The notes beneath the pieces are model-generated. The model ran no database searches and was not told where the DNA came from. It saw nothing but the letters and a program-made list of their open reading frames with translations. Below are positions 7,574 to 19,614 of a stretch of DNA of 37,871 nucleotides, piece by piece; the stretch's first letter is position 1, and each line of letters begins with the position of its first letter. Position numbers and translations under genes: made by a program. Source of the stretch: Candidatus Saccharimonadota bacterium (lineage in GTDB: Bacteria > Patescibacteriota > Saccharimonadia > Saccharimonadales > UBA4665). The stretch is from the NCBI GenBank assembly GCA_027365445.1, contig DAHXNJ010000014.1, positions 1-37,871 on the forward strand, given 5' to 3'.

Positions 7574-8233
7574 ATGTATGAACTCATAATCATCGTAATT
7601 TTTGCTCTCTTAGCTTATCGGAATATCGATATTCGAGAAGATGAATTTGCAAATACTTCAAGAAAAATTGGCGACAAAGTAGGTAAGCTATGGGACATAG
7701 CTCATCACAGCATGAAAGAAAATCGCTTTCTACGTGCTGAAAAGGCATTGCTGACGATCTTAAAGATTGACGAGAAGAATGCTGCCGCATATAACAGACT
7801 AGGTATTTTATATGCCAAGCAAAAAGAATATAGAGATGCAATAGATTGTTTTGAAATAGCAAGTAGCATAGAAGCAACTCCTTCTTCACTACACAATTTA
7901 GGCTTAATCTACTACGAAACAGAAAATTACGACAAAGCAGCAATAGCTTTTGAACAAGCGCTAAAGCTAGAAGATAAACTTGCAGCACGACACGTTGCAT
8001 ACGCTAAAGTACAAGAAAAACTAGGTAATAATAGAATGATGCTAAAAGAGCTAGAAAAAGCTTCCGAGCTTGAGCCGAACCGAGAGACCTTCAGTCTGTT
8101 ACTGAAAGCCTATATAGCTCAAGGAATGGTCAAAGAAGCTGATTTAATAAAAGATAGACTGAATAAGCTCAAAAAACCTACTTCTAAAAAACCGAAGCGT
8201 ATGCTTAGGCCATCTCGAAGAGTGATCGTTTAA
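7574..8233 (+). CDS. TPR-repeat protein with N-terminal membrane segment
   Basis: Repeated AAAYNRLGILYAKQKEYRDAIDCFEIA / SLHNLGLIYYETENYDKAAIAFEQALKLE. Confidence 0.85.
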   Translation: MYELIIIVIFALLAYRNIDIREDEFANTSRKIGDKVGKLWDIAHHSMKENRFLRAEKALLTILKIDEKNAAAYNRLGILYAKQKEYRDAIDCFEIASSIEATPSSLHNLGLIYYETENYDKAAIAFEQALKLEDKLAARHVAYAKVQEKLGNNRMMLKELEKASELEPNRETFSLLLKAYIAQGMVKEADLIKDRLNKLKKPTSKKPKRMLRPSRRVIV

Positions 8234-8893: not shown

Positions 8894-9202
8894 TTAGTAT
8901 TTTTCAAGTAATCGAACGTAGTCAGATCTAGCATATAGAATACGCAGTATATAGACTTCCTGGTCAATAACCTTATATATTATTAAGTAGTTATCTACTA
9001 TTAGATACCTATAGTTATCCAGTTTAGTGTCTATCGTTTTTAACTCAGCACCTAGCCCTGAAAAGTCTGATACCTTTTGTAAAGCATTGAGTATTTTATC
9101 GGCTATGTTGTGTGCGGCAATTGGGTTATGTAGATCATTTTTAATATACCTAAATAAGTCGGCTAGATCTTGCTCTGCTAAGGGCGTAAATATAATTTTC
9201 AT
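8894..9202 (-). CDS. RelE/ParE-family toxin (copy 1)
   Basis: MKIIFTPLAEQDLADLFRYI...NYRYLIVDNYLIIYKVIDQEVYILRILYARSDY, RelE/ParE fold signature; paired with an upstream Phd-like antitoxin. Confidence 0.88.
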   Translation of the reverse strand: MKIIFTPLAEQDLADLFRYIKNDLHNPIAAHNIADKILNALQKVSDFSGLGAELKTIDTKLDNYRYLIVDNYLIIYKVIDQEVYILRILYARSDYVRLLEKY

Positions 9203-9447
9203 AAACTTATACTATATTTTTTTGCGATCTGATCTAAAGGAACTCCATTATTCTTTAGTGATTTCTCTCCTTTTTGTATTTCTTTTAGCAAGTTTTCTAC
9301 AGTTATCTCATGATCATAGTCGTCTATCTTAGAGATTACATAACTACCCCGGCCATTGCGCGTAAGGTAAACTGGCTTATCTACGTCTACTTTATTTAAT
9401 ACTTCAGTGTAATTACGTAAGTCTGAGATAGGTAATATAATAGGCAT
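9199..9447 (-). CDS. Phd/YefM-type antitoxin (copy 1)
   Basis: MPIILPISDLRNYTEVLNKVDVDKPVYLTRNGRGSYVISKIDDYD; SD ggagg upstream of ATG at 9447; overlaps toxin start. Confidence 0.88.
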   Translation of the reverse strand: MPIILPISDLRNYTEVLNKVDVDKPVYLTRNGRGSYVISKIDDYDHEITVENLLKEIQKGEKSLKNNGVPLDQIAKKYSISL

Positions 9448-9468
9448 AATTATAATCCTCCAATAAAA

Positions 9469-9497
9469 ATTGTAGCAATATATACGTGCGAATACAA
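9469..9497 (-). promoter_or_regulatory. Predicted promoter of TA copy 1: TTGTAT-17-TACAAT with TGn extended -10
   Basis: Minus strand TTGTATTCGCACGTATATATTGCTACAAT. Confidence 0.65.
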
Positions 9498-9564
9498 CAG
9501 CATTTGTGTTTAGCAATAAACCAAATTAGAAAATCTATCCTATTATATACGAGTACCTTGAATC

Positions 9565-9595
9565 GTGCTGCAGGGTTATAGCCAAAGTCTGTATC
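9565..9595 (-). repeat. Degenerate cassette-boundary repeat, copy F
   Basis: gtgctgcagggttatagccaaagtctgtatc; partial alignment to ggtgcagcgttcttggcaaagtcggaac. Confidence 0.45.
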
Positions 9596-9621
9596 TTATT
9601 GTTGAGATAGCCATTTTAAAA

Positions 9622-9819
9622 TTACAAAGATTGATCGCTGGTGAACTTAGTTACTTTATCTTCTTGAACTTCAGTAATTTCTATTTCCGGATTGGTAGCT
9701 CTCCTTACAATTGCACGCATCATCATGTCAATTGCTACTTCATATGGTGGTAGATAAATAGCTATACGTTCACAAGTACGTTGAAATTCTGGTTCTGGAG
9801 TAATAAATTCTCGATTCAT
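9622..9819 (-). CDS. Small hypothetical protein (65 aa)
   Basis: MNREFITPEPEFQRTCERIAIYLPPYEVAIDMMMRAIVRRATNPEIEITEVQ; sits between two repeats. Confidence 0.6.
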   Translation of the reverse strand: MNREFITPEPEFQRTCERIAIYLPPYEVAIDMMMRAIVRRATNPEIEITEVQEDKVTKFTSDQSL

Positions 9820-9855
9820 AATTATTACTATACACTAATATCTTAATAATTACAA

Positions 9856-9886
9856 TGGTGCAGCGTTCTTTTCAAAGTCAGAACTG
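9856..9886 (-). repeat. Cassette-boundary palindromic repeat, copy B
   Basis: tggtgcagcgttcttttcaaagtcagaactg. Confidence 0.85.
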
Positions 9887-9892
9887 GTTTAG

Positions 9893-10198
9893 TCATTTTT
9901 CAAGTAATCGAACATAGTCAGATCTAGCATATAGAATACGCAGTATATAGACTTCCTGGTCAATAACCTTATAGATTATTAAGTAGTTATCTACTATTAA
10001 ATACCTATAGCTATCCAGTCTAGCGTCTATCGTTTTTAAATCTGCACCAAGCTCTGGAAAGTCTGATAGCTTTTGTGAAGCATGTAGTATTTTATCGGCT
10101 ATGTTGTGCGCAGCAATTGGGTTACTTAATTCATTGCTAATATACCTAAATAAGTCAGCTAGATCTTGCTCTGCTAAAGGTGTAAATATAATTTTCAT
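9893..10198 (-). CDS. RelE/ParE-family toxin (copy 2)
   Basis: Close paralogue of 8894..9202: MKIIFTPLAEQDLADLFRYISNELSNPIAAHNIADKILHASQKLSDF. Confidence 0.88.
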   Translation of the reverse strand: MKIIFTPLAEQDLADLFRYISNELSNPIAAHNIADKILHASQKLSDFPELGADLKTIDARLDSYRYLIVDNYLIIYKVIDQEVYILRILYARSDYVRLLEK

Positions 10199-10443
10199 AA
10201 AGTTACACTATATTTTTTTGCAATCTGAGCTAAAACAACACCACTATCCTTTAGGGATTTCTCTCCTTTCTGTATTTCTTTTAGTAATTTTTCTGTAGTA
10301 TTCTCATGATTATAGTCGTCTATTTTAGAGATTACATAACTACCCCGACCGTTACGAGTGAGGTAGACTGGCTTATCTACATCTACTTTATTTAAGACTT
10401 CAGTATAGTTTCGTAAATCTGAGATAGGTAAAATATTTGGCAT
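10195..10443 (-). CDS. Phd/YefM-type antitoxin (copy 2)
   Basis: MPNILPISDLRNYTEVLNKVDVDKPVYLTRNGRGSYVISKIDDYN; SD ggagga upstream of 10443. Confidence 0.88.
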   Translation of the reverse strand: MPNILPISDLRNYTEVLNKVDVDKPVYLTRNGRGSYVISKIDDYNHENTTEKLLKEIQKGEKSLKDSGVVLAQIAKKYSVTL

Positions 10444-10464
10444 AATTATCTTCCTCCAATTAAT

Positions 10465-10493
10465 ATTGTAGCAATATATGCGTGCGAATTCAA
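10465..10493 (-). promoter_or_regulatory. Predicted promoter of TA copy 2: TTGAAT-17-TACAAT with extended -10
   Basis: Minus strand TTGAATTCGCACGCATATATTGCTACAAT. Confidence 0.68.
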
Positions 10494-10500
10494 CAGCATT

Positions 10501-10529
10501 TGGTACAGCGTTCTTGGCAAAGTCGGAAC
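10501..10529 (-). repeat. Cassette-boundary palindromic repeat, copy C
   Basis: tggtacagcgttcttggcaaagtcggaac. Confidence 0.85.
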
Positions 10530-10741
10530 TATTTTGGTTTCTCAGCAACTTTGTTATTCGAACGAGCCTTAATAATATTGTAGCCAAGCATTGCTATAAA
10601 AACAGGGATAGCAAAAATTAATATATCAAAGATTTTCGCACTTAAACTGTGGTTAACAAGTTTAATAAAGGGTAATGATACTAATTCAGATAATATTGTT
10701 GCAACGATAGTTCTAAGCAATGCATCGTAAATTAATTTCAT
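10529..10741 (-). CDS. Small membrane protein (two predicted TM helices)
   Basis: MKLIYDALLRTIVATILSELVSLPFIKLVNHSLSAKIFDILIFAIPVFIAMLGYNIIKARSNNK; start at 10741 because the ORF-track extension runs into repeat D. Confidence 0.65.
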   Translation of the reverse strand: MKLIYDALLRTIVATILSELVSLPFIKLVNHSLSAKIFDILIFAIPVFIAMLGYNIIKARSNNKVAEKPK

Positions 10742-11522: not shown

Positions 11523-12362
11523 ATGGGAAAGATAGATAAAAGTACTCTAGACAATATAAAGAGTAATTTAAATAGTACTGGTATATTTTTGGAGAATTAT
11601 GTCTACAACTTTTTAAAAACAAATAAGACACAGTATGGTGCTAAGAGAGAAGTATCTTACAATATTATTGACGCAGGGGGTTTTATTGAAGGTGAATGTG
11701 ACATAGTTGCTTCGAGTAATATATCAGAAAATAAAGTTGTCTGTTTTTTTGTAGAATGTAAAAGAGCAAGTGCAGATGATAAGTATTGGGTTTTTGAAAA
11801 AGGACCTATGGTTCCAACCCCATTTATGACACTAAAGTTACTAGGCGATAACCCAGAATATAGGCATGATTTACATTTGTCGGCATTGAATTACAATCGC
11901 CCTGAAGACTACGAAGCAGCAATTAATATTTTTGAATTTGATGAGAAATCAGGCAAAAGAAATACTAGTATACAGCGGAGAGAAAGGCCATTTCTTGCGC
12001 TTAGACATGCTAATGAAGCTTTCTCTGGTCTAGCTAAGGATTCTTTGGCCGCTCTTGACATTGCTCACAACACAAAAGCAAACGAAGGGATGAAAATATT
12101 ATTTCTTCCACTAGTGGTTACAACCGCCACATTGTTAATGCCTACATATAACACCGAAGATATTGATTACAGTAAAGGGACAATTGATACTGATAAAATT
12201 GAACTTGATAAGAAAGGCTGGGTGCACTTTGAATTTCCGTTAACTGGGGCATTGAATAATAACTTCACGGAGTATAAAAAAAGATCTACATTTATTGTTA
12301 ACGTAAATAGCTTATATGATTTTATTAATGGAGTTACTATAGCCGCAAAAACTTATATGTAG
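11523..12362 (+). CDS. Putative PD-(D/E)XK-type nuclease, hypothetical
   Basis: GECDIVASSNISENKVVCFFVECKRASADDKYW: D...(18)...ExK pattern between hydrophobic strands. Confidence 0.55.
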   Translation: MGKIDKSTLDNIKSNLNSTGIFLENYVYNFLKTNKTQYGAKREVSYNIIDAGGFIEGECDIVASSNISENKVVCFFVECKRASADDKYWVFEKGPMVPTPFMTLKLLGDNPEYRHDLHLSALNYNRPEDYEAAINIFEFDEKSGKRNTSIQRRERPFLALRHANEAFSGLAKDSLAALDIAHNTKANEGMKILFLPLVVTTATLLMPTYNTEDIDYSKGTIDTDKIELDKKGWVHFEFPLTGALNNNFTEYKKRSTFIVNVNSLYDFINGVTIAAKTYM

Positions 12363-12481
12363 CATGAAGTCATATTTTTAAATCTATTTGTCTTAAACAC
12401 GCATAACGGTTTTGGTGGGGCTTTGTGGTCACCTTTGTTCCTAGTTTGTTTTGGAAAGTGTCTAAATATGACTAAGAGATA

Positions 12482-13207
12482 TTACTCTAAACTTGGTATA
12501 GAAATACCGAAAATATTATCAGAGCATCCGTTAATATCTGTACATGCCTGAATTTGTGGTATTTGAGCCTCCACTATTGTCTCGGTGCATCCTATTGAAT
12601 TAACATTAGTAACATATTGGCCGTAGAAAGACATTATGCCGCTATTTGTAACGGTAATATACTGATTTATATCATTCAATATTTGCTGGTCTGTATAAAG
12701 ACTAGGATTTTGAATAGATTGATTCAATAAATCTGACCAATAATTTGATACTGAGGTTTGAGAGGATTGTATAGATTGCACCAGATCATTCCTCCAGTAT
12801 GCCTCGCCATAGCCGGGATAGTAATGACATGTGGATGACGCCCACACCACGCCGTCTATTACGCTGGGGTAAGTAGTTGGTGTAGATGGTTTTGGCGTCG
12901 TAGTCGTAGTTGGTGTTGATGGCGTGGTGGTTTGAGCGGGTTGCGTAGATGTGTTGTTATCGGTTGTAGGAGCAGTTGTTGCAGGCGTGGATACAGGTTT
13001 ATTGGTTGAAGAAGCTTGTTTTAATACGACCGTCTGTGGCTTCTTATTATGAACAGTAAGTGCTGCTGCTCCTCCCACAACTATCATGACAAATGCAAGT
13101 AGAACCACTGCATTAATTGCCTTACCATAACGAGGGAATGGCTTAATAAAGCCTTTGAGGTGCTTACTAAGTCTTATTATTCTTTTTCTGCTGGTGTGGT
13201 TCTTCAT
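12482..13207 (-). CDS. Single-TM surface protein with Thr/Pro-rich linker and Cys-containing extracellular domain
   Basis: TM AVVLLAFVMIVVGGAAALTV followed by TTTPSTPTTTTTPKPSTPTT linker. Confidence 0.75.
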   Translation of the reverse strand: MKNHTSRKRIIRLSKHLKGFIKPFPRYGKAINAVVLLAFVMIVVGGAAALTVHNKKPQTVVLKQASSTNKPVSTPATTAPTTDNNTSTQPAQTTTPSTPTTTTTPKPSTPTTYPSVIDGVVWASSTCHYYPGYGEAYWRNDLVQSIQSSQTSVSNYWSDLLNQSIQNPSLYTDQQILNDINQYITVTNSGIMSFYGQYVTNVNSIGCTETIVEAQIPQIQACTDINGCSDNIFGISIPSLE

Positions 13208-13215
13208 GATACGTC

Positions 13216-13686
13216 CTACTGCGCCGCTGTTATCTGTGAGGTACTATTTACTACTATTTCAGGTTCACCGTTATAGTTCACAATAGAACCCGTAACATCA
13301 ATACTTTGACCGGAGTACTGGTTAAGCAACGATGGACCAAAAGAAGAACCCGCTGGTATATAAGCTGAGAATCCGTAGGGTGCTGATGTTGATTGGTCTA
13401 AGTACATCTGACCACTGTCTGAAGTGTAGGCGTAGCCTGTGAACTGTACACATCCACTAGTACCCTCTAGGCTTGCTGCTTGCGAAACTGGTGAGCAGCT
13501 AGATGTTGTTTGAGCTGGAGTAGTAGTTTTAGAACCTGGATTAGAGCTGCCCGTTGAGCTGGAACCATATGAGCTATCAGGGTGGTCTTTGTGGTACTTC
13601 GTTACGCCATAGGCAATCAAACTGCCCCCGAGTATTATTACTCCTGCTACGACTAGTCCGATTATCCACTTAGTATTGTTGTTCAT
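13216..13686 (-). CDS. Single-TM surface protein, predicted extracellular OB-fold-like domain
   Basis: TM WIIGLVVAGVIILGGSLIAYGV; ...LLNQYSGQSIDVTGSIVNYNGEPEIVVNSTSQI resembles OB-fold strands. Confidence 0.7.
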   Translation of the reverse strand: MNNNTKWIIGLVVAGVIILGGSLIAYGVTKYHKDHPDSSYGSSSTGSSNPGSKTTTPAQTTSSCSPVSQAASLEGTSGCVQFTGYAYTSDSGQMYLDQSTSAPYGFSAYIPAGSSFGPSLLNQYSGQSIDVTGSIVNYNGEPEIVVNSTSQITAAQ

Positions 13687-13689
13687 AAG

Positions 13690-14634
13690 TTAGTTGAGGT
13701 CATAGTAGCTATTCGCAAAGCTGTTAAATGAAGTACTGTTGACGTTTTGAGTCATGATAATAATCTCTTGAGAAGAATTATAGAAAGTATACGCATATGT
13801 AGTGGCGCCATCCTGGCTGGAAGTATACTCTCCATAGATGGCAGGATAACCATTGAGAGTCGTGTTTTGTATAGGTGATGTTGGAGTTAAGCCAAATGAT
13901 TTCTCTAGTGAAGCCTCGTAACTATCCATCAGTTGCTGTGATGGGCTGGGGTTATTGTCTACTAGCACTACGTAATCCCCCTGGCTGTACGAGTAAGCGT
14001 CATATTTGTACCCAGCGGCATCGGTACCTGGATCTACAGTAGGAACTCCAGGAAACTGTATATCAAAGCCATCTATTGATGATACATACGGCCCAATTGA
14101 TGATTGGGTGCTTGATCCGTTATTGGTGTTAGGTGCTTGCTTGCTCTGGGTATTTGATGAATTATTAGAACTATTCGGATTGGGGCCACCATACTTAATG
14201 TACCAACCCATTAATGCAACAATAGCCAGTACGATAATAGTAGCTACTGCACTTGTTCTATAGTGGACAGCTGTTTTTCGTAGGCTTTCACGGTTATAGC
14301 TATTAAGATTATCGTCGAAAGACTTTTGGGCGTACTTTTTATCTTTCAGGCTAAAGCCTGTAATCTTCTGCCCAGCAAATAAGCCAGCCTCTAAGACTTT
14401 TGAGTACTGTGTGGCAAAGCTATCAATACTAGGGTCTCTCTCATAGCTATAAGGGTCATAGCCTTTATAATCTTTGTTTACTGTTTGGATAAGCTTTATG
14501 TAGGCTTGCTGTGCTGCTGAAAAAATATTATCTTTTTCTTCTTTTTCTGCTCTCTTAATTACAAATGGTCGCTTTTTGAGCCAGTCTTCAATGCTGTCTT
14601 CTATGCGCATTTCAAACTTTTCAAAAATATTCAT
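13690..14634 (-). CDS. Membrane-anchored protein, N-terminal cytoplasmic and C-terminal extracellular domain
   Basis: TM SAVATIIVLAIVALMGWYI in mid-protein, Asn/Ser-rich linker, then GFDIQFPGVPTVDPGTDAAGYKYDAYSYSQGDYVVLVDN. Confidence 0.75.
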   Translation of the reverse strand: MNIFEKFEMRIEDSIEDWLKKRPFVIKRAEKEEKDNIFSAAQQAYIKLIQTVNKDYKGYDPYSYERDPSIDSFATQYSKVLEAGLFAGQKITGFSLKDKKYAQKSFDDNLNSYNRESLRKTAVHYRTSAVATIIVLAIVALMGWYIKYGGPNPNSSNNSSNTQSKQAPNTNNGSSTQSSIGPYVSSIDGFDIQFPGVPTVDPGTDAAGYKYDAYSYSQGDYVVLVDNNPSPSQQLMDSYEASLEKSFGLTPTSPIQNTTLNGYPAIYGEYTSSQDGATTYAYTFYNSSQEIIIMTQNVNSTSFNSFANSYYDLN

Positions 14635-14661
14635 TATAATATGGCCTTATTTAATGCAACT

Positions 14662-14819
14662 AAAAAAGCTCGCCACAGAGTGAAGCCGAAGCTCCCATAA
14701 CCTTTCGGCTATGACAATCGTGAAATAGTACCCTTTGACGAGCTATTACTTCACGATTGATTCTGTTGGCCATGCCCCTACTAAAGCAGAAGTTTAGGCC
14801 TGGGTGGATTAACCACTTG
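14662..14819 (-). ncRNA. Predicted structured RNA with pseudoknot (stand-alone sRNA or leader of 14634 gene)
   Basis: Minus strand: TTTACA-16-TATAAT upstream; 12-bp helix (14716-14727 with 14747-14758); loop 14737-14744 pairs with 14667-14674; GAAA-capped hairpin 14696-14713; UUCG-capped hairpin 14682-14695; ends in U6. Confidence 0.6.
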
Positions 14820-14825
14820 AGTGCA

Positions 14826-14834
14826 ATTATAACA
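14826..14834 (-). promoter_or_regulatory. Extended -10 (TGTTATAAT) of the predicted RNA
   Basis: Reverse complement of attataaca; TTTACA 16 bp upstream. Confidence 0.65.
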
Positions 14835-14880
14835 TTAACGCTCTCTGTGTAAATTCCTTAAGCTTGCTGTTATACCTGTT

Positions 14881-15786
14881 ATGACGGAGAATGTAAGCAA
14901 TTATATGGATATGAAAATGAGTCTACCGTTACGGTTGTCTAAGTATGACGCGAATATGTATCGCGCGCTCAGCTTATTTCCTAAAGAATTGGAAGAGAAG
15001 CCCCTAAGTCCGAGTGAATTCACGAGCCACTTTAAGGATTTTTACGGCCGCCCGGTTCAGGACATTGTAGAAGCGCTCCACCGCTATAGCCAAAAAGGAT
15101 ATTTGAAATTTGAGCTTACTGTTGCACCTGAATACCTTAATCACGGTCAGACTCTTGCTAAAATTCTTGATAAACTATCCGGCTCTAGTGTTTCTCCCGA
15201 TAAAAACCACGAGCTGGGCAAACTGGTTTACGATAAAGTTGTAGCAGGGCAGCCGCTAACAAAGGTCGAGGCCAGCGTCTTACCAGATAACGCCAAGTCA
15301 TACCTGGCTTTTAAGTTGTCAAATATAGACAGGGTGCGCCTTAGTGATGATCTGGCGATATACGACAGTCGCACGTCGCGGCTGATAATCCTCGGGGGTA
15401 AAACCGCCACTAAATTGCCGCCACTCAATTTAAAAGATGTTCACTTAGAACCCGATAGCTACGAAAAGCTCACGGGTGTTCTGCATCTAACACGATTTTA
15501 CCGCGTTGCTATTGCTGGCAAGTCCAGTGTTAAGCGCTCCAGTGGTAGGAAATATGAACAATGCTGGGTCATGGAGTGTCTATTCAAATCTGACGAAACA
15601 ATCGGTAAGGGCGTGCCTATCAGCACACTGTTACGCATGCATAAAGATAACGTTGATAAAACTACTACGAGAAAAATTGAAAATGCAGTCGCTGAAATTA
15701 ATAAAAAAGTTACCAAAGTTACTCGTTCCAAAAACCTGTTAATGATTGGCGATAAAAAGGTCAAAATCACTCCCTACTATCTGTAA
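14881..15786 (+). CDS. Hypothetical mobile-element protein
   Basis: Intact 301-aa ORF; higher local GC than flanks; upstream of DUF5659-like and recombinase genes. Confidence 0.75.
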   Translation: MTENVSNYMDMKMSLPLRLSKYDANMYRALSLFPKELEEKPLSPSEFTSHFKDFYGRPVQDIVEALHRYSQKGYLKFELTVAPEYLNHGQTLAKILDKLSGSSVSPDKNHELGKLVYDKVVAGQPLTKVEASVLPDNAKSYLAFKLSNIDRVRLSDDLAIYDSRTSRLIILGGKTATKLPPLNLKDVHLEPDSYEKLTGVLHLTRFYRVAIAGKSSVKRSSGRKYEQCWVMECLFKSDETIGKGVPISTLLRMHKDNVDKTTTRKIENAVAEINKKVTKVTRSKNLLMIGDKKVKITPYYL

Positions 15787-15886: not shown

Positions 15887-16132
15887 ATGGACATAGATGA
15901 ACCAGTTATAAAAATACACGACTTGGGCTTAGCTGCTGCGTTAATCAGTAGCGGTATTGAGTTATTAGGAACGCAACGAGGAGTTATGCAGCGCGTATAC
16001 TTTGTGTTTCCCAACAACGACAAAGTAGGCCGTACTATGAACCGCTACTGGAACAACACACTAAAAGTACCGGCACGGCTATTCTTTGATAACACAAAGG
16101 CGCTGAAGAGCCGTATTTACGAGACTGAGTAA
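15887..16132 (+). CDS. DUF5659-like small protein
   Basis: IKIHDLGLAAALISSGIELL...RVYFVFPNNDKVGRTMNRYWNNTLKVPARLFFDNTKALKSRIYETE. Confidence 0.7.
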   Translation: MDIDEPVIKIHDLGLAAALISSGIELLGTQRGVMQRVYFVFPNNDKVGRTMNRYWNNTLKVPARLFFDNTKALKSRIYETE

Positions 16133-17759: not shown

Positions 17760-17876
17760 GTTCACACGATAGATAATTACGCAACGGGCGTTTTTATTTC
17801 CGCCATTTAGTGCGGCTTGGTATCGGAAAATAGCCTTGTTGCTGTCTACCGTGTGAACAACCAAGTCGCACTTTTT
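17760..17876 (+). ncRNA. Predicted pseudoknotted/terminator-containing leader RNA of the serine recombinase
   Basis: GTTCACACG.. (17760) pairs with ..CGTGTGAAC (ends 17858); GTGCGGCTTGGT (17810-17821) pairs with ACCAAGTCGCAC (17860-17871), followed by TTTTT; helices interleave. Confidence 0.6.
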
Positions 17877-17889
17877 GATAGGAGATAAA

Positions 17890-19614
17890 ATGCAGAAATT
17901 AAGATATATAGCATACGCACGAAAGTCTACTGAAGAAGATGAAAGACAGGCTCTTTCAATATCCTCCCAGAAAGACAATATCTATAAACGCTTTGGCCAA
18001 GAGCTTAATATAATTGACTGTTTTGAAGAGAGTATGAGTGCCTCAGAGCCGTACAAACGCCCTGTTCTTCAGAAGATACTCGATATGATTGATAAAAGCG
18101 AGGCAGACGGAATTGTAGCGTGGCATGCAGACAGACTATCGCGTAACGAAATTGATGCATCTGCTATTTCTTACAGGATACGCAAAGGTGTCATTAAAGA
18201 TCTCAAGTTGGTCAGTGGCATTACTTTTGAAAATACTCCTGACGGAATAATGATGTTGCAGTTTAGTATGTCGCAATCTCAATACTTCTCGGCAAAACTT
18301 AGTAAGGACATACGACGAGGTAATGAAAAGAAACGTGAGCTCGGACAACTTACCGGAAAAGCACAAGAGGGTTATCTTAATCAACGTATTCATGGTCAAG
18401 CGGTTGTAGTTAAAGACCCAGTAAGATTTCCGCTTATACGAAGAGCTTTTGATCTGTACCTTACTGGCGAATACAGTGTGAACAGTATCATGACAATTAT
18501 GAACGAAGATTGGGGCTACCGAACTGTTAAGCGAAATAAGACTGGCGATATGCCTATTTCACGCACAAGCCTATATAACATCTTTCGCAATGTTAGAAAT
18601 GCCGGTCTTGTGCCAGACCCCTACGACCCTGAGAAGCTATATAAAGCTGATTTTCCTGCCATGATAACTATGGAAGAGTACGACAAGGTACAAGTTTTGC
18701 TAGGCAGAAAAGGCTTACCACGTCTTGCTAGTCGTAAACAGTTTGCGCTACGGGGTTTTATTCGCTGCGGTGATTGCGGCTGCCTAATAACGGCGGAGGA
18801 TAAAAAGAAACAGCTTATAAGTGGCAAGATCAACCTGCACACCTATTATCACTGTACTGGCAAGCGTAAAGGCTGTACTCAAAAGAGCGTTTATATTAAA
18901 GAGGACGAACTCTATAAAGATGTTCTTAATCTTCTTGATAGCTATGAGCTAGTCCCAAAGCTCTACGATTGGGCAATGGACGCTTTTAGGGAAATGGCGG
19001 AGCAAGAAGCAAAAGAACGTAACAATGTTCAGACAATGCAAAATAATACTATTGCTGGCGTACAAGCCCAGCTAGACAAGCTACTTGATATGGTCACTCG
19101 GGGACTTATTACAGATGATGATTACAGGAGTAAAAATATAGCTCTTAAGGCAGAACTGAAGAGGCTACAAGAAGAACAAGCTGAAACTGCATATAGAGCA
19201 CGGAACTGGTACGAAGTCGCTACAGATACCTTTGAGAAGCTTACTTATGCCAGTGAAAAGTTCGTTAGTGGCGATCTAAGCAATAAAAAGGACATACTGC
19301 TTGCGATTGGTCAGAACCCAATACTTATGGACAGAAAACTAGAGATTACCCCTAATGAATGGCTTATACCAGTGAGAAGCACCGCAAAACGCCTGAGAGA
19401 TGAATTAGAAAAGGTTAGAACATTGCCTGAACAGATGAAAAAAGCCTCCGAAGAGGCAATTTGTCAAGAATGGTGCAGGGAGAGGGATTCGAACCCCCGA
19501 AGGCGAAAGCCAGATGATTTACAGTCACCCGTGTTTGACCGCTTCACTATCCCTGCATTTATTATTCACATCCTATATTACTCTATAAACTTACATAATT
19601 CCAAGAAGTTATGA
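17890..19614 (+). CDS. Large serine recombinase (resolvase domain, recombinase domain, zinc ribbon, coiled coil); 3' end reads antisense through tRNA-Tyr
   Basis: YIAYARKSTEEDERQALSISSQ; GIVAWHADRLSRNEIDA; FIRCGDCGCLITAE...YYHCTGKRKGC; SD aggag before ATG at 17890. Confidence 0.92.
   Translation: MQKLRYIAYARKSTEEDERQALSISSQKDNIYKRFGQELNIIDCFEESMSASEPYKRPVLQKILDMIDKSEADGIVAWHADRLSRNEIDASAISYRIRKGVIKDLKLVSGITFENTPDGIMMLQFSMSQSQYFSAKLSKDIRRGNEKKRELGQLTGKAQEGYLNQRIHGQAVVVKDPVRFPLIRRAFDLYLTGEYSVNSIMTIMNEDWGYRTVKRNKTGDMPISRTSLYNIFRNVRNAGLVPDPYDPEKLYKADFPAMITMEEYDKVQVLLGRKGLPRLASRKQFALRGFIRCGDCGCLITAEDKKKQLISGKINLHTYYHCTGKRKGCTQKSVYIKEDELYKDVLNLLDSYELVPKLYDWAMDAFREMAEQEAKERNNVQTMQNNTIAGVQAQLDKLLDMVTRGLITDDDYRSKNIALKAELKRLQEEQAETAYRARNWYEVATDTFEKLTYASEKFVSGDLSNKKDILLAIGQNPILMDRKLEITPNEWLIPVRSTAKRLRDELEKVRTLPEQMKKASEEAICQEWCRERDSNPRRRKPDDLQSPVFDRFTIPAFIIHILYYSINLHNSKKL
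19438..19457 (-). terminator. Rho-independent terminator downstream of tRNA-Tyr
   Basis: Minus strand GCCTC-TTCG-GAGGC-TTTTTT. Confidence 0.8.
19471..19556 (-). tRNA. tRNA-Tyr (anticodon GTA)
   Basis: Minus strand GCAGGGATAGTGAAGCGGTCAAACACGGGTGACTGTAAATCATCTGGCTTTCGCCTTCGGGGGTTCGAATCCCTCTCCCTGCACCA; long variable arm, encoded CCA. Confidence 0.93.

Follow-up and report, generated by a model that had tools for sequence, protein, structure and literature searches.

A LOOT RNA as a candidate fold-switching 5' leader of an accessory gene in Saccharimonadia

Results and discussion

The structured RNA described here belongs to LOOT (Rfam RF03000), a catalogued bacterial RNA family whose function is unexplained, and it probably acts in cis as a structured 5' leader of an accessory gene, switching between folds. 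It lies on a contig of 37,871 nucleotides from a Candidatus Saccharimonadota bacterium, analysed at its full length and called the window below. We compared 180 LOOT copies. Loci were taken first from the window's class (82, made up of the window and 81 relatives), next from other classes (64), and finally as a hold-out set (39). Counts given over 141 loci comprise 77 Saccharimonadia and 64 other loci.

Identity and layout of the window RNA

The window RNA scores 61.6 bits against RF03000, whose gathering score is 46.4, with E = 2.3e-9 for a search of the window. This is the sole match above gathering score at the site when all Rfam families are searched; the raiA, HEARO and IS605-orfB-I RNA families gave no match there. 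The alignment is full-length and covers all six consensus helices, the inner stem of P3 being weak in this copy, which is the only LOOT in the genome assembly. The original prediction had offered a new stand-alone sRNA as one of two possibilities, and had counted strong similarity to an Rfam family among the results that would refute it. Such a match was found; an orphan or new RNA family is therefore rejected, and the genomic context described below is not that of a stand-alone RNA.

LOOT came to Rfam from the ZWD set and has been included since release 14 (PMC7779021). The CaCoFold paper mentions it, giving six helices with a total of about 43 pairs (PMC7657543), and in Rfam 15 it gained two covarying pairs and is listed among the families improved with R-scape, beside the raiA, HEARO and IS605-orfB-I RNAs (PMC11701678). 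Rfam gives its type as 'Gene; sRNA', and the Rfam model does not extend past the last hairpin. Outside this model lie all of the features discussed below, namely the pseudoknot, the competing hairpin P6, the leader context and the start-codon copy; the description by Weinberg et al. (2017) may hold some of them, and we claim no priority for the LOOT pseudoknot or gene context.

The elements of the window copy, and the genes that follow it, are:

14826-14853, minus strand: sigma-70-type promoter TTTACA-16-TATAAT (-35 at 14853-14848, -10 at 14831-14826; 11 of 12 consensus bases)
14804-14816, minus strand: short hairpin GTGG-TTAAT-CCAC near the inferred RNA 5' end, by direct reading
14682-14800, minus strand: LOOT core, complete model positions 1-121
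14768-14800, minus strand: P1, with outer stem GGCC (14800-14797) / GGCC (14771-14768) and an inner hairpin
14715-14759, minus strand: P3, long helix CAATCGTGAAGTA (14759-14747) / TATTTCACGATTG (14727-14715), 13 bp with one G-U
14737-14744, minus strand: P3 loop AGCTCGTC (= AGCUCGUC), 5' side of the pseudoknot
14696-14713, minus strand: P4 hairpin with GAAA (GNRA) loop, by direct reading
14682-14695, minus strand: P5 hairpin with UUCG loop, by direct reading
14667-14674, minus strand: GGCGAGCT (= GGCGAGCU), 3' side of the pseudoknot, beyond the Rfam model
14662-14667, minus strand: U6 tract directly after the pseudoknot strand
13690-14634, minus strand: LOOT-led gene, 314 aa, one predicted membrane segment; start codon 47 nt past the core
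13216-13686, minus strand: second gene of a probable operon, 156 aa, starting 3 bases past the end of the 314-aa ORF
12482-13207, minus strand: third gene of the probable operon, 241 aa, starting 8 bases past the 156-aa ORF

The promoter, GTGG hairpin, long helix, GNRA and UUCG hairpins and U6 had all been claimed from the letters alone, and all are on the minus strand as described, with two corrections. The long helix had been given as 12 bp and has 13, and the U-tract does not follow an ordinary hairpin: a search for terminator-like sites at 14500-15000 returned no ordinary terminator hairpin before U6, where the pseudoknot strand stands instead. The -35 box falls just outside the range 14662-14834 originally delimited. 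Pfam gave no match for the 314-aa or the 156-aa protein.

The fold energy of the window RNA is -59.2 kcal/mol, compared with a shuffle mean of -39.9 (z = -5.8), and none of 200 dinucleotide shuffles was as good. Together, the covariance-model match and the covariation of the pseudoknot place this structure far beyond chance. Among 54 aligned sequences, the P1 outer stem shows double changes in three of four pairs, with 96.8% of cells paired. The P4 loop is conserved as GGAAAC or CGAAAG and that of P5 varies among UUCG, GAAA and GCAA types (alignment A1). Our impression, without a count, is that hairpins of varied sequence occupy the equivalent 5' place in many Saccharimonadia loci. A second LOOT subtype, seen at many Saccharimonadia loci (for example, L064, L083 and L095), has ACAATTYGGCA conserved just 5' of the core and UUUUGUGU replacing the U-run.

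Pseudoknot and competing hairpin

The pairing of the P3 loop with the strand upstream of the U-tract, also part of the original prediction, turned out to be a nearly constant feature of the family. At least 6 bp can form in all 141 loci (median 12 pairs), and pairing with the locus's own partner scores 26.5 against 15.9 for swapped partners, the best of 5000 permutations reaching 17.6. In the 54-sequence alignment, 96.1% of the pseudoknot cells are paired and six of eight pairs show double changes; the covariation of the whole structure was matched by none of 500 shuffles, and no slide came close either. The pseudoknot was found again in 37 of the 39 hold-out loci. This pseudoknot beyond the Rfam model is real. 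P3, with a median of 11 bp, has 126 distinct 5' strands among the 141 loci.

The 3' strand of the pseudoknot can instead pair with sequence about 20-60 nt further downstream, in a hairpin that we call P6. Own partners score 16.4 here and swapped ones 13.4 (top of 5000 permutations 14.3), and own exceeded swapped again in the hold-out set, with p below 1/5000. Judged by these pairing comparisons, P6 is conserved and competes with the pseudoknot for one strand. A P6 in the window itself, UGUGGC with GCCAUA 5' of the start codon, was considered and rejected: its score of 13.5 is at chance level (swapped mean 13.4).

Distribution and position upstream of genes

Within the window's class, 65 of 393 genomes have LOOT; its occurrence inside genera is patchy, and a genome holds at most five copies. 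Of 384 genomes sampled across the phylum, 84 have it, about one fifth of the sampled Patescibacteria (CPR), which are ultra-small bacteria; here too it is patchy, with one to seven copies. It was absent from the 14 control genomes. Records named Candidatus Saccharibacteria account for most occurrences of an exact 21-mer taken from the region of the pseudoknot loop.

In 137 of 141 loci a gene starts on the same strand 20-150 nt downstream of LOOT, at a median distance of 60 nt (quartiles 52 and 74). Under a strict rule (ATG, Shine-Dalgarno (SD) match of at least 4 and at least 50 aa, within 150 nt), 52 of 75 LOOT loci qualify, versus 8.6% of random places; in the hold-out set, 37 of 39 loci are followed by a reading frame that begins with ATG and runs for 45 aa or more. 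An exact TATAAT, most often some 30 nt ahead of the core, is present within 70 nt upstream in 58 of 141 loci; the rate among random windows is 2.4%. A U-run of at least five follows the pseudoknot strand in 45 of 77 Saccharimonadia and 29 of 64 other loci (74/141), and in many copies it is replaced by UUUGUGU or UUCUGUGU. The arrangement suggests that LOOT behaves as a 5' leader of mRNAs rather than as a free-standing RNA: the leader position expected of a riboswitch is there, and the independence from the neighbour gene expected of an sRNA is not, given gene starts at so short a distance.

A copy of P3 at the start codon

Many loci outside Saccharimonadia carry a second copy of the P3 5' strand, typically 8-12 exact nucleotides long, that overlaps the led gene's start codon or lies just 5' of it; in locus G496, for instance, P3 has ACCAGTCACGGT and the leader reads ...ACCAGTCACGGTtATG. 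By a fixed rule, such a copy is present in 17 of 63 non-Saccharimonadia loci for 1.5 expected (permutation p < 1e-4), and in 11 of the 39 hold-out loci for 0.6 expected (p < 5e-5). Most copies end within 4 nt of the ATG. About 28% of non-Saccharimonadia LOOTs thus have one and about 70% are without a clear one; in Saccharimonadia the signal is weaker (7 against 2.75 expected), with four clear cases (G386, G279, G066 and G162).

Since the 5' strand recurs at the start codon, the 3' strand of P3 has two possible partners, its own helix mate and the translation start. In 12 loci the two folds are 0-5.6 kcal/mol apart, the pseudoknot being left out of these energies. P3 is locus-specific even inside one genome with seven LOOT copies, several of whose P3s match their own gene; as P3 differs from locus to locus in this way, each P3 matches its own gene. 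We looked for a start-codon copy in the window and found none: the pairing level seen there is reached by 28% of other leaders. The original prediction's second possibility, a riboswitch-like leader of the membrane-protein gene that begins at 14634, is thus supported for the family, by its gene starts and by the subset with start-codon copies; the window copy lacks this last feature. Mutually exclusive folds that could be tied to expression signals are likewise predicted in a subset of the family and not in the window copy.

Proposed mechanism

Family membership, the pseudoknot, P6, the leader position and the start-codon copy come directly from sequence computation; from these we propose the following. 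Transcription would start at the promoter just upstream of LOOT, and the RNA would fold into P1, P3, P4 and P5, with a pseudoknot closed between the P3 loop and the strand that precedes the U-tract. At the family level, this compact fold would compete with an extended one, in which the pseudoknot strand pairs downstream as P6 and, where a start-codon copy is present, the 3' strand of P3 pairs with the translation start. The compact fold would turn the gene on and the extended fold turn it off, the pseudoknot favouring the open-start fold. We presume that the folds interconvert in the cell and that a ligand, a protein or the ribosome acts as trigger. Having no start-codon copy, the window leader would act through the pseudoknot and U-tract, that is, on transcription, or through the leader fold itself; we base this on the rest of the family and on the position of U6 after the pseudoknot.

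Led genes and the window island

The genes led by LOOT are accessory and mutually unrelated. A strongly hydrophobic segment, marking a predicted membrane protein, is present in 63% of them versus 22% of other nearby genes. Pfam domains occur in a few led genes each: type IV pilin-like N-termini, DUF4352, YebC, and D12 and N6/N4 DNA methylases. Their lack of a common function argues against a switch, as typical metabolite riboswitches differ in this respect.

Several groups of loci deserve mention. At L121, L140, L150 and L123 the led gene encodes a DNA methyltransferase (type II/III), and in each case its start codon carries the P3 copy; LOOT could possibly delay expression of such methylases upon entry into a new cell. 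Several multi-copy LOOTs of the window's class (L056, L083, L086, L096, L097 and L105) precede proteins with the common N-terminus MxRLPxPGxDxGxWGxILNDYL. In one clade (L064, L079, L091, L092, L088, L109 and L110), LOOT lies between rpmA and a methyltransferase gene. For some copies at this locus, which seemed to have no downstream gene, a stand-alone sRNA was considered; it was rejected on finding, in most cases, an SD and a micro-ORF of 35-50 aa with one membrane segment. The genomes of L109 and L110 have a decayed LOOT, yet the SD and membrane ORF are apparently kept.

The window copy resides in an island of about 11 kb, between a TPR-protein-like gene (7574-8233) and a tRNA gene. At the tRNA side lie:

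17875-19614, plus strand: serine recombinase (Pfam Resolvase, Recombinase and zinc-ribbon domains; PHROG integrase, 3.9e-61)
19471-19556, minus strand: tRNA-Tyr, overlapped by the end of the serine recombinase ORF

The same interval measures 11.2 kb in the window and 1.3 kb in a LOOT-less relative from its genus. The 12.5-19.5 kb part has a higher G+C content, 0.38-0.46 versus about 0.33. As an att duplication we could propose only an 11-mer at 12479, which is at chance level and was rejected. Other genes of the island include two tandem, near-identical ORF pairs (8894-10587, minus strand; 102 aa + 105 aa and 101 aa + 130 aa) resembling toxin-antitoxin modules of RelE/antitoxin type, and a 279-aa ORF near the low-G+C edge (11523-12362, plus strand) with no match in Pfam, PHROG or PADLOC. 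A small DUF5659 protein (15887-16132, plus strand; 1.5e-11) is encoded between recombinase/helicase-like genes and the LOOT leader, and a similar gene is present in one other LOOT locus (cluster c150). In 40 LOOT genomes, with a mean of 2.8 serine recombinases per genome, a count by eye puts roughly 20 LOOT copies no more than about 5 kb from one of these recombinases, which argues that LOOT often travels on such elements.

Alternative explanations

Could the element end transcription rather than control translation? As an attenuator, the pseudoknot strand and the U-run would form a pseudoknot-type terminator that P6 prevents or follows, with the start-codon copy secondary. The window's U6 directly behind the pseudoknot strand, the U-runs of Saccharimonadia and the sharing of this strand with P6 are all consistent with this. 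However, a classical antiterminator would have to form earlier than P6, whose downstream arm is transcribed only once the U-tract is past, and many copies have UUUGUGU or UUCUGUGU in place of the U-run, so that we regard attenuation as possible but rather doubtful. The idea of a trans-acting sRNA, released by a pseudoknot and U-tract stop to reach another RNA or protein, with its genic position due to shared mobility, can point to the RNA's own promoter, its strong self-contained fold, the U-runs in just over half of the loci and the Rfam type. We nevertheless consider it unlikely: a gene starts at a fixed short distance in nearly all loci, leaving little space for a further promoter, the P3 copy at the adjacent start codon is a cis relation, the rpmA-locus copies still precede tiny membrane ORFs with an SD, U-runs are missing in nearly half of the loci and the window is without an ordinary terminator. 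A long U-tract could still end a short transcript, and a dual RNA is conceivable.

The proximity of serine recombinases also evokes a recombination site or guide acting at the DNA level. Against the roughly 20 neighbouring pairs stand the covariation, G-U pairs and GNRA/UUCG loops, which indicate RNA; many copies, those at the rpmA locus and at pilin genes included, have no recombinase nearby, and the window LOOT sits inside its island, with some 5 kb between it and the tRNA junction. This explanation is very improbable. The cis-acting leader is thus the reading we retain for the window. For the family as a whole we propose, more tentatively and from sequence comparison, that LOOT may be a widespread Patescibacteria cis switch placed on unrelated accessory genes (membrane proteins, pilins, restriction-modification methylases) and working by a locus-specific strand swap, P3 mimicking the start of the led gene and co-evolving with it. 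If so, LOOT would differ from a pathway-specific riboswitch in being a leader of general use to newly acquired genes, which would explain how one control RNA is common to unrelated incoming genes. An orphan family typed as sRNA would gain a testable role in gene control in Patescibacteria, where regulation is little known.

Comparison with known systems

One parallel is with translational riboswitches of the anti-SD/anti-anti-SD type. There too, a helix strand has alternative partners, one in the sensor fold and one at the translation start, and near-identical sequence is found at both pairing places; a P3 3' strand able to pair with either copy, in folds close in energy, follows the same design. 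LOOT differs in having no known ligand and led genes without a common pathway, and in that its switching helix is an internal hairpin of locus-specific sequence. Another parallel is with the 'morons' of phages and mobile elements, accessory genes with their own promoter and terminator. Like these, LOOT-led genes are accessory, have their own promoter and are often found on integrated elements; to our knowledge, the moron concept does not include a conserved folded leader RNA common to unrelated genes, unlike LOOT. Finally, the raiA, HEARO and IS605-orfB-I RNAs are, as LOOT is, structured, wide in bacteria and partly tied to mobile elements.
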